A program made the position numbers and the translations under genes. 64,000 nucleotides of DNA from an uncultured Leptolyngbyaceae cyanobacterium (GTDB lineage Bacteria; Cyanobacteriota; Cyanobacteriia; Leptolyngbyales; Leptolyngbyaceae): positions 62,001 through 126,000 of the forward strand of contig CALIDI010000002.1 of NCBI GenBank assembly GCA_938023035.1. Direction: 5' to 3'. Below, in pieces: positions 60,654 through 64,000 of the stretch. Under the pieces are notes generated by a model that was not told the origin of the DNA, made no database searches, and was given only the letters and a program-made list of their open reading frames with translations. The first letter of the stretch is position 1; each line of letters opens with the position of its first letter.

Positions 60654-61268
60654 CTAGCGCTCTAGCCAGGCCAAAACCCCAAATAGGAGAAATAACCCCC
60701 CTCCGATAGCCATTAGTAGTCGCTCAGAGATGCGCCCAGCGGCAAGGCGACCGCCAATGACTGCGATCGCCGCACAAATGGCATGACCTAAAATCGCTCC
60801 CAACGCGACCCCCAGCGGATAGCCCTTCGCCGCCAGAGCAACGGTTGCAAACTGGGTGCGATCGCCCCATTCAGCCACAAACGTTAGCCCAAAGGCTTGC
60901 AGTATGATTTGCCAGCGGGCCCGCTGGCTCAAGCCTGTAAAGCTGCGATCAACAATGGCAGCCGCCTCTGCAATTTCACCATCACAGGTGGCCGCTGTCG
61001 GTAAGTGGCTCGCGGTATAGAGCAGGTGTAGCCCCATGCCGATGAACAAAATGACTGCCGCCAGCTTGACATATTGCTGAGGTAGCAGGGCGACAAATTG
61101 CCCCAAGCCTACTGAAAGCAGCGTCATTACCGCTAGAGCGGCTACAACCCCAACAAAAACAAGACGACGCGGAAACCGGGCTGCCAACAGCAGCGCAATA
61201 CAAAAGGTTTTATCGCCTAGCTCAGAAACAGTAATTAATAACAACCCAGCGGTAAAAGCAGCCAACAT
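60654..61268 (-). CDS. GDT1/UPF0016 (TMEM165) family Mn2+/Ca2+ transporter
   Basis: The 204-residue protein has two halves, each with the family motif E-x-G-D-K/R-T: ELGDKT at 16-21 and EWGDRT at 133-138. Each half has three membrane helices, the standard six-helix plan. Members in cyanobacteria (Mnx) and plastids move Mn2+ out of the cytosol into the thylakoid lumen or periplasm and feed photosystem II with manganese. The central loop (SHLPTAATCDGEIAEAAAI) is cytosolic. Preceded by a strong ribosome site (GAGGAG) and a structured leader that may be a Mn2+ riboswitch. Transcribed alone on the minus strand. Confidence 0.93.
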   Translation of the reverse strand: MLAAFTAGLLLITVSELGDKTFCIALLLAARFPRRLVFVGVVAALAVMTLLSVGLGQFVALLPQQYVKLAAVILFIGMGLHLLYTASHLPTAATCDGEIAEAAAIVDRSFTGLSQRARWQIILQAFGLTFVAEWGDRTQFATVALAAKGYPLGVALGAILGHAICAAIAVIGGRLAAGRISERLLMAIGGGLFLLFGVLAWLER

Positions 61269-61284
61269 CTATAAAACTCCTCTC

Positions 61285-61430
61285 AATCGACAGTAGGTTG
61301 AGATGGAGTGAACTTAATGAAATCACAGAAAACATCACCCAGCCCACTCCATCGTGGACTCAGTGAAGGTCTCGCGCTCAATTAGGGTCTCACCTGGGCC
61401 GTTCAAGCAACTGGCCGCTGAGTTACCTTA
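61285..61430 (-). promoter_or_regulatory. Structured 5' leader, candidate yybP-ykoY Mn2+ riboswitch
   Basis: Read on the minus strand, the leader has AAGGU at its 5' end (61429-61425), which can pair with ACCUU at 61370-61366. It also has CUCAG/CUGAG arms in crossing order, a GGCC...GGCC hairpin between them and a GCGAGACCUU segment like the 3' side of the yybP-ykoY family. Downstream, GATGGAGTG and CACTCCATC form a perfect 9-bp stem (61345-61353 with 61302-61310) just before the ribosome site. The overlapping pairings suggest a switch, and the gene controlled is a Mn transporter of the class known to be under yybP-ykoY control in bacteria. I judged the match by eye. Confidence 0.45.
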
Positions 61431-61653
61431 AATGCCACCTAAGCCAGGCTCATCACCAGCATGTTGACTTATATGTACTGGGGACACCAGTCGCTACTCC
61501 CCTTCAATTCCCCATCACTATACTGTGATCATGGCCTCAGATGCAATCTAGAAGTTCTATCTCTGAACTCCGTCCCAACCTTAGTGTGTACGGCTGTAGA
61601 GGTGAGTCGATGTGCCAGATCAGGCTATCTGCCAAGACAGAAGCCATGGCGAG
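61431..61653. other. Spacer between convergent transcripts, nothing recognised
   Basis: This region lies upstream of the Mn-transporter leader and downstream of the membrane-protein gene. It may hold the transporter promoter. Plus-strand frames at 61461-61803 lack family likeness or ribosome sites. Confidence 0.35.
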
Positions 61654-63384
61654 CTAGTTCCTCGCTGGAGAGTCTGCTGTTGTTTGCGGAGCTCGGATAA
61701 ACCCTTTAGCAAAACCCTTTTCGGGCGATCGCAGGTGCACGGTGTCGGGCACGTCAAACGCACAGGGAATCTCCGTCGCCCAGCACAAATCTCCCGCTGG
61801 TGAGCGATAGACCCAATTATTGACCTGGTGCTCGACAACGGCGACCTGACGCAAGGGCGGAGGCAAAATCAGCCGTGCTCTGGCTTCTTGTCTGGCATAA
61901 ACGCCCCAAGTCAGGGCTGCAAAAAAGCAGCAGAGCCAAGCTAAAAATTGAACTCGGCATAAGTATCTCCTGTTTTCTATCAGAGGTGATTGGAGTGCTG
62001 ACCAATAGTGCCGACCGTGGAGGGCCAGCAACAAAGCCGTCGCAACCAGCACATAGGCGATCGCAAAGCGAAAGAAGGGAGCGGTTATAGCCAGAAAGGC
62101 AAGGCCTCCAGCAAAGATTGCCCCAACCCAACCCCAACCCGTGAATTCGCTGGTTTGCCAGCGCCTCAGAGAAAGTAGCCAGCTAGCGGCCAAGCCCGTC
62201 ACGGCAACGGCTAAAGCCTGATTGACTTTAGCATCGGCCAGCCACTTGCCGATTAACCAAAGGAACGGATTGGCCCCCTCTGGGGGCACGCCATACCAAT
62301 TCGTCCAACCATGGGTTTTTTGGGCGGTGATTTTGACCGATGCAGCCTCCGGTGACCAGGGCAAATCTAGACATAGGCGAGTCGAGGGATACAGCGGACA
62401 GCCAGAAGTGATTGTGCTGGCTAGCACCATAGGAGCGAGAACTACCGTCGCAACAACAACGCCCTGCCAGAGTGCCTGCCCTCGGCCCTTGGTCTGCGCC
62501 AGGTAAAATAAAGCCGTCACTGCCAATAACGGTAGGGCCACCAGTTTGACGGTGACAATCCCGCTGGCGAAAAAGAGCGGCACGGCTGCCGCCGGGATGG
62601 ACGGGTTAAACGGCTCGGTCTTAGCATCGGTAGCCAGCAAGACCAACCAGGCCAGGATGCCAGTTAACACGGCAACCGGCAAATCAGGAGAGGGCGACAC
62701 TAAAATTTCAAACAGGAGGCGAAACCCCAACAGTAAGGGCAACAGTAGCAACGAAAACAGGAGTAAAAACCAGTCGCTCGGGCGATCGCGGGGTTGTAAA
62801 CAACGTTGCAAGCTCATACAAGTCTGCAACAGCACCAGTAGCAATACAAAACCATTGGCTACTGCTGCCGCCCGTGCCCCCAACGCAGGGGGATTAAAGG
62901 GAGCCGCAAACGCAAACCAGGATGATGTGAAGCCTAAATTGGATAGGATTAATGCCAACCCAGGGATGGTGCCAAAGCGAGATAACCACTGCAACATACT
63001 GTAGTGATAAAGCCCCGTATCTACCCAGGTAACTGGACGACTGATAATCGCAGCAGTTGCCAAGCTGATCGCAGCAAAAATCACAATCCAGCTTTTGTTG
63101 ACCTGCTGCCAGCCGTGGCGTACCTCGTGGCGCAGCCCTGGGATGAGCCAGGCAACGCCACTCCAAACCAGGAAGACACCGCCTCCGACCAGCGGGGAAA
63201 GGGGAAATAGCAAGGAAACCGCCAGCAGCGAAACTGCTAGAGCGACGACTCCCAACCAGAGGGCTGCGATTCCGCGATCGCTGGGCCGCTGTAGCCAATC
63301 AGCCCCAAACCCGTGCAACAAAGCTAAACCCGCTAAATAACAGGCCAGGGTTAACCCAATCCAAACACCGATTAAGTAGAGCAT
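61654..63384 (-). CDS. Polytopic membrane protein, LIC_10190-like
   Basis: From ATG 63384 the protein has 576 residues and about 12-14 membrane helices. It resembles LIC_10190-type membrane proteins, which may be GT-C-like transferases or polysaccharide-assembly proteins: an extracytoplasmic WVDTGLYHYSMLQWLSRFGTIPGLALI segment in pieces with a conserved Asp, then NLGFTSSWFAFAAPFNP. The C-terminal 60 residues form a small soluble domain with two Cys (DLCWATEIPCAF). The start is chosen because it lies just after the stop of the upstream glycosyltransferase gene (63387); longer in-frame sequence overlaps that gene. The two are evidently one operon, suggesting cell-surface polysaccharide or glycolipid synthesis. 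Substrate unknown. Confidence 0.78.
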   Translation of the reverse strand: MLYLIGVWIGLTLACYLAGLALLHGFGADWLQRPSDRGIAALWLGVVALAVSLLAVSLLFPLSPLVGGGVFLVWSGVAWLIPGLRHEVRHGWQQVNKSWIVIFAAISLATAAIISRPVTWVDTGLYHYSMLQWLSRFGTIPGLALILSNLGFTSSWFAFAAPFNPPALGARAAAVANGFVLLLVLLQTCMSLQRCLQPRDRPSDWFLLLFSLLLLPLLLGFRLLFEILVSPSPDLPVAVLTGILAWLVLLATDAKTEPFNPSIPAAAVPLFFASGIVTVKLVALPLLAVTALFYLAQTKGRGQALWQGVVVATVVLAPMVLASTITSGCPLYPSTRLCLDLPWSPEAASVKITAQKTHGWTNWYGVPPEGANPFLWLIGKWLADAKVNQALAVAVTGLAASWLLSLRRWQTSEFTGWGWVGAIFAGGLAFLAITAPFFRFAIAYVLVATALLLALHGRHYWSALQSPLIENRRYLCRVQFLAWLCCFFAALTWGVYARQEARARLILPPPLRQVAVVEHQVNNWVYRSPAGDLCWATEIPCAFDVPDTVHLRSPEKGFAKGFIRAPQTTADSPARN

Positions 63385-63386
63385 GG

Positions 63387-64000
63387 TTAATTTCCAGAAT
63401 CGACAACGAATGGATGGGGAGGAAGCGACTGCGACCGCGATCGCTCCCAAAAGAAGCCAGCTACATTTGCTACCTGTGACAACAGCAGTAAGCCAGCTAA
63501 TGGAAAAACCGTAGGCCAATCCGCACGGACAAAAGGAAACGTCAATAACCGGAGATAGAACGTCAGTGGTTCTACCCGAATCGATTGGGTCGTGCGCTGT
63601 GCTCGAATCTGATGAAAGCAAAAGGCCCCACGCCCATAGTTAAAGTGCTGCCGCCAAAACCGAACTAAATCTAGGTGGTGAGCATGGTAAATCTGGGCCG
63701 TTGGTGCATAGACCAGGTCATAGCCGTGGTACCGCCAGCGATCGCAAAACTCCCGGTCTTCTCCCGCCGCCAAGGGAAATCGGGTATCAAACCCGCCGAC
63801 AGCTCGAAACGGCTCCGTCGGCATTGCAAAATTATTCGAGGCAAAGAACGTAGCTGTCGTTGCTGCCTGGTTGTAATAGTGGTAGAGGTAGTCGATTAAA
63901 AGTTGACTCGCCGTCGAATACAAGTTGTTAGGCAAGGCATTGAGGGTCTGCCCCCCAATTAAGCTCTGGGGATGGGCATTACAGGCGACGGCCAGGGCAC
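63387..64000 (-). CDS. GT2 family glycosyltransferase, C-terminal part (partial)
   Basis: The frame is open to the window edge, so the N-terminal catalytic part is missing. The visible 200 residues contain a run typical of GT2-family enzymes: TEPFRAVGGFDTRFPLAAGEDREFCDRWRYHGYDLVYAP in pieces, with the D-x-R/ED-E-F-C-D-R-W motif of the acceptor region, followed by QIYHAHHLDLVRFWRQHFNYGRGAFCFH. The C-terminus has hydrophobic segments (FPLAGLLLLSQVANVAGFFW), which suggest membrane association. It transfers a sugar from a nucleotide donor, probably in surface polysaccharide assembly. The stop at 63387 precedes the next gene by two bases. Confidence 0.88.
   Translation of the reverse strand, partial: ALAVACNAHPQSLIGGQTLNALPNNLYSTASQLLIDYLYHYYNQAATTATFFASNNFAMPTEPFRAVGGFDTRFPLAAGEDREFCDRWRYHGYDLVYAPTAQIYHAHHLDLVRFWRQHFNYGRGAFCFHQIRAQRTTQSIRVEPLTFYLRLLTFPFVRADWPTVFPLAGLLLLSQVANVAGFFWERSRSQSLPPHPFVVDSGN

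Follow-up and report, generated by a model that had tools for sequence, protein, structure and literature searches.

Manganese is required by the water-splitting centre of photosystem II and is toxic in excess. The locus described here raises the question of whether a cyanobacterial gene for a manganese-type transporter is preceded by a manganese riboswitch, and of how such a switch would act on the gene. The window (the whole 64,000-nt stretch of DNA analysed) belongs to a genome of 4.75 Mb in 62 contigs and carries, at 60654–61268 on the minus strand, a UPF0016/GDT1 gene for an Mnx-type Mn2+/cation transporter (PF01169, 145.4 bits against a cut-off of 27). Its product of 204 aa, translated from an ATG at 61268, contains two E-x-G-D-[KR]-T motifs (ELGDKT and EWGDRT) and is 55–65% identical to its nearest relatives; the close relatives of mnx are found in cyanobacteria, chiefly in Leptolyngbya-like and Nostocales genomes. 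A gap of about 385 nt separates the gene from the one upstream (61654–63621). A second pair of GDT1 matches, in adjacent short frames elsewhere in the same genome (G000:C60:2031-2542), resembles the two-gene Hmx1/2 arrangement, and no riboswitch was matched there.

An initial annotation of the letters alone had placed a switch-like leader at 61285–61430, with two alternative folds built from crossing complementary arms and a 9-bp stem. The sequences it named were all found on the minus strand (AAGGU at 61429–61425, ACCUU at 61370–61366, CUCAG at 61422–61418 and CUGAG at 61363–61359), and the perfect 9-bp stem is formed by GAUGGAGUG (61353–61345) and CACUCCAUC (61310–61302). The crossing 5-bp arms did not exceed chance, as dinucleotide shuffling of this 146-nt span left at least one crossing pair in 94% of cases, and as many as observed, or more, in 6%. 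The 9-bp stem was mildly unusual, such a length being reached by 2.6% of dinucleotide shuffles, and the folding energy of the aptamer region (61350–61530) was ordinary (MFE z-score of 0.29). Because the arms are common in shuffles and the folding energy is ordinary, the single sequence was no proof of a switch; the proof came from comparison with relatives.

This comparison delimited a whole yybP-ykoY type aptamer at 61507–61362 on the minus strand, where all the following elements also lie, organised as a four-way junction of P1, P2, P3 and P4. The 5' strand of P1.1, GAAGG (61501–61505), is invariant in 60 leaders, and its 3' strand, CCUUC (61365–61369), belongs to strand A of the expression platform as well. 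Next come the L1 sequence GGAGUAG and the P1.2 5' strand GCG (61492–61500, invariant as GGGGAGUAG), the latter pairing with CGC at 61376–61374. The P2 hairpin, ACUGG...CCAGU (61477–61491), shows compensatory changes among relatives in 6 of its 6 pairs, and the P3 arm, CAUAUAAG / CUUAGGUG with a distal GCUGG/CCUGG stem (61436–61475), in all 8 P3.1 pairs. Inside the P3 arm lies L3, UCAACAU (61467–61461), whose core is invariant together with the distal stem. The P4 arm (61377–61435) appears in the MFE fold as nested GGU/ACC, CUCA/UGAG and GGCC/GGCC pairings; it is long and variable among relatives, with compensatory changes at its base. The aptamer is completed by the P1.2 3' strand CGC and the L1 3' strand GAGACC (61368–61376, conserved as GCGAGACC), a core that cyanobacteria share with the E. 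coli mntP leader.

With this architecture at hand, AAGGU and CUCAG were reassigned on comparative evidence to the nested P4 arm, and a pseudoknot of crossing arms was rejected, as the P4 hairpin accommodates both 5' arms and such crossings are frequent by chance. ACCUU is the 3' strand of P1, whose partner GAAGG (61505–61501) falls outside 61285–61430. That span does hold part of a riboswitch, but only its 3' half, and the aptamer portion 61507–61431 had been missed. Likewise, GAGACC is present twice (61391–61386 and 61373–61368), and only the second copy is the L1/P1 core. The earlier proposal of a yybP-ykoY Mn2+ riboswitch with two alternative folds before a UPF0016 gene was thus right in substance and wrong in its coordinates and exact pairs.

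Sequence and pairing conservation were measured across relatives. L1 (GGAGUAG / GAGACC), the L3 core (UCAACA) and the distal P3 stem, all present in the window, were invariant across 60 non-redundant leaders; among 130 mnx leaders examined, 118 contained GGGGAGUAG with UCAACA no more than 120 nt behind it, nearly all of them with the GAGACC core further on. For P2 and P3, 95.3% of cells in the 60 leaders were paired and 15 of 18 pairs had changed on both sides, a level of pairing that none of 500 shuffles reached and that dropped to 50% or less when the strands were slid. When P1 and P4 were added (whole aptamer, 36 sequences), 93.2% of cells were paired and 21 of 32 pairs showed two-sided changes, a level of pairing that was matched by 0 of 500 shuffles and that fell to 48% or less on sliding. 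Two-sided changes were present in P1.2, P2, P3 and P4. In P1.2 the window has a G-C pair versus U-A in others, and 5 of the 6 modelled pairs of P1.1 never vary and hold no covariation information. The covariation in orthologous leaders that the initial annotation had asked for was clearly positive, in these helices and also in the platform helices A:B, B:C and C:D described below.

A covariance model, R1, had included the window, so a leave-one-out model, R2, was built from 35 other cyanobacterial leaders with the window and E. coli excluded. R2 scored the window at 85.6 bits (E 1.9e-18, 61507–61362) and recovered the manganese riboswitch in the leader of E. coli mntP with 50.9 bits (E 4.3e-10). 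E. coli alx was matched weakly (19.2 bits, E 0.018), and the top remaining match in the 24 kb of E. coli searched had 12.6 bits. These scores indicate detectable homology to experimentally studied yybP-ykoY members. An ordinary leader whose pairs are complementary by chance, or one that is bound by a regulator such as ManR, would be in line with 5-bp arms no better than chance, an ordinary folding energy and a score below the cut-off of the Rfam model RF00080; as judged from strong covariation across 36–60 leaders, the leave-one-out score, and recovery of mntP by a model lacking E. coli sequence, we regard that explanation as already refuted.

The element of E. coli mntP has the same four-way-junction architecture as the window, with GGGGAGUAGC, UCAACAUACU and the GCGAGACC core, and differs from it in P1.1 sequence, P4 length, expression platform and downstream gene (MntP, not UPF0016); it is described as a translational manganese riboswitch before a manganese exporter (PMC11647493). 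Crystal structures from Xanthomonas oryzae and Lactococcus lactis present L1–L3 docking and a P1.1 switch helix that correspond to those of the window, and in the X. oryzae construct the L1 3' strand and P1.1 begin with GAGACC, like in the window. Members of the family that have been studied bind Mn2+ between L1 and L3, and the ion stabilises the switch helix P1.1 (PMC6754395). A yybP-ykoY riboswitch has also been predicted before Vibrio mneA, a gene of the same UPF0016 transporter family in a different phylum (PMC13274385). By analogy with the family, Mn2+ would be the ligand here and L1 would dock onto L3. The aptamer ends 94 nt before the start of the PF01169 gene and so has the position upstream of a manganese/cation transporter gene that is typical of the family. 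With a probability of about 0.9, we take the leader to be a yybP-ykoY manganese riboswitch, a new member of a known family. That a yybP-ykoY relative has changed its ligand, or works as an OFF switch, is very improbable: the sequence by itself does not reveal ligand specificity, and other metals, Cd2+, Co2+ and Ni2+ among them, are bound within the family too (PMC11477304), but L1, L3 and GAGACC vary little or not at all among 60 cyanobacterial leaders and are common to E. coli mntP, and the gene encodes a UPF0016 transporter, the Synechocystis member of which, Mnx, is a manganese exporter (PMC11649195, PMC9936198).

The expectation that RF00080 (Manganese; gathering cut-off of 45 bits) would match above its threshold was not borne out. 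No RF00080 or other Rfam match reached its gathering threshold anywhere in the window, and in a permissive search RF00080 was the top match of the leader (61503–61311, minus strand) with 15.8 bits and an E of 0.028. A match to MIR1886 was rejected as chance. In 18 of 19 relatives' loci tested RF00080 scored 20–35 bits, every one below the cut-off, which was reached by none of 58 cyanobacterial whole genomes; weaker matches (E up to 1) occurred in 39 of these 58, the best with 42.8 bits, and the better ones fell at mnx leaders. The gathering score is a curation threshold and no structural feature, and the model may under-call the family generally. Since not one cyanobacterial member tested reaches the cut-off of the current model, such members would escape annotation pipelines. 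In Rfam release 15 the model has 177 positions, the first of which (P1.1 5' strand and L1) are unpaired in the alignment shown. Among 14 control genomes, only 2 passed the cut-off.

The element was closely linked to mnx. Of 37 relatives searched with full filters, 29 have a close mnx homologue, and 26 of these 29 carry the element, whereas none of the 8 that lack such a homologue does (p = 4e-6). A UPF0016 gene follows directly behind 28 of 29 matches. The remaining match (L180, positions 165–274, the second match of genome G006) is a decayed aptamer, GAAGGGAAGUAGC, of 38 bits, with neither the GAGACC core nor a UPF0016 gene behind it. When 292 genomes were drawn evenly from the phylum, at least 49 had a match with an E of 0.01 or less; the count is a minimum, since few candidates per genome were scored. 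The riboswitch was undetected in the mnx leaders of G011, G016, G025, G031, G034, G045 and G056 (L141, L127, L126, L030, L128, L139 and L135, respectively), and it was missing from those of all four members of one genus (g16).

The expression platform extends to the start codon at 61268 and consists of four conserved strands. Strand A, GAGACCUUCACUGAGUCCAC (61354–61373), comprises the P1 3' strand and an extension; strand B, GAUGGAGUGGGCUGGGUGAUGUUUUC (61326–61353), pairs with A in the OFF fold or with C in the ON fold; strand C, CAUUAAGUUCACUCCAUCUCAA (61298–61319), contains the anti-Shine-Dalgarno (SD) sequence ACUCC and pairs with B (ON) or D (OFF); and strand D, UUGAGAGGAGU (61276–61286), carries the SD sequence GGAG at 61280–61277, 8 nt before the ATG. 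In the window, ACUCC-A-UCUCAA is the anti-SD segment that pairs with D. The 9-bp stem of the initial annotation is the 5' end of the longer helix B:C. A:B had 97.1% of cells paired across 60 leaders (48% or less when slid), with both-sided variation in only 2 pairs; B:C had 93.0% (58% or less when slid), with compensatory changes in 7 of 13 pairs; and C:D, which hides the SD, had 77.6% (50% or less when slid), with two-sided changes in 12 of 16 pairs. A:B and C:D on the one hand, and P1 and B:C on the other, are mutually exclusive, as the A:B helix takes the CCUUC of P1. Strands A, B and C change together in heterocystous relatives, for instance in Dolichospermum (L049, L102).

The pairing and the folding energies point to a translational switch that is turned on by its ligand, and a relay of this kind appears fairly likely to us. 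When manganese is high, the ion would bind between L1 and L3, docking two legs of the four-way junction and stabilising P1.1. P1.1 formation would take the 5' part of strand A out of the competing A:B hairpin; B, freed from A, would pair with C, leaving the SD in strand D free, translation on and manganese exported. Without Mn2+, A:B would form and C, released, would pair with D and hide the SD. High manganese thus probably uncovers the ribosome-binding site. Unconstrained folding of the window gave an SD accessibility of 0.009; forcing P1 cost 6.8 kcal/mol and raised it to 0.494. Equilibrium folding failed to extend P1-driven SD release to most relatives, in which the switch was unpredicted (mean accessibility of 0.09 free versus 0.13 with P1 forced), and the mean rose up to 0.44 only when the rest of A was held open. 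As P1 alone does not suffice in most relatives, the step from P1 to B:C would require kinetics or tertiary effects outside the model, and since P1 alone leaves the equilibrium unshifted, the relay in most of them is deduced from covariation and not from energies.

The same manganese riboswitch could instead act mainly on transcription, through Rho-dependent or intrinsic termination, with A, B, C and D as terminator and antiterminator. In members from sister classes the P1 3' strand does take part in terminator-like hairpins with T runs, located ahead of TerC and Na/Ca exchanger genes, and Rho is reported to act at E. coli mntP too (PMC11647493). An intrinsic-terminator scan of the window leader detected no terminator-like site, however, the partner-switching strand is complementary to the SD, and the SD helix is kept in most relatives, so this version is unlikely. 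The X. oryzae / L. lactis paper likewise describes a transcription antitermination platform, in contrast to the predicted SD-sequestering strand exchange of the window. A promoter scan of the leader gave nothing.

A riboswitch on mnx bears on how cyanobacteria regulate manganese. The 2024 study of Synechocystis Mnx recognises only ManSR in cyanobacterial manganese regulation, contrasts it with the yybP-ykoY riboswitch of heterotrophic bacteria and reports an mnx transcript unchanged under manganese excess (PMC11649195), as expected under control at the level of translation, provided that the Synechocystis gene has the element. The ManSR-only gap would be closed, with a directly testable element, by a conserved riboswitch for cytosolic Mn2+ on mnx. 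Priority is uncertain, as the cyanobacterial cases may already sit in a supplementary list behind the claim, made in a review citing Dambach 2015, that yybP-ykoY controls UPF0016 in 328 of 333 bacterial strains (PMC7380456); the cyanobacterial expression platform is worth testing. The chances seem about even that Cyanobacteriia hold a distinct manganese riboswitch clade below the Rfam cut-off, with the four-strand translational relay (A:B and C:D versus P1 and B:C), and that terminator-type platforms are retained in sister classes of the phylum; if true, this would be a cytosolic Mn2+ sensor that has been missing for Mnx, next to ManSR in the periplasm.

In those sister classes, three aptamers were matched by R1/R2 at 40–46 bits (L177–L179, in G096, G093 and G076). 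They precede a TerC gene (PF03741) and Na/Ca exchanger genes (PF01699, tested for L178), the hairpins with T runs follow the aptamer, and their platform is transcriptional, in contrast to that of mnx. A further, weak aptamer match of 30 bits (L181, G093:C1:154761-154885) has a terminator-like hairpin before a gene for another protein.
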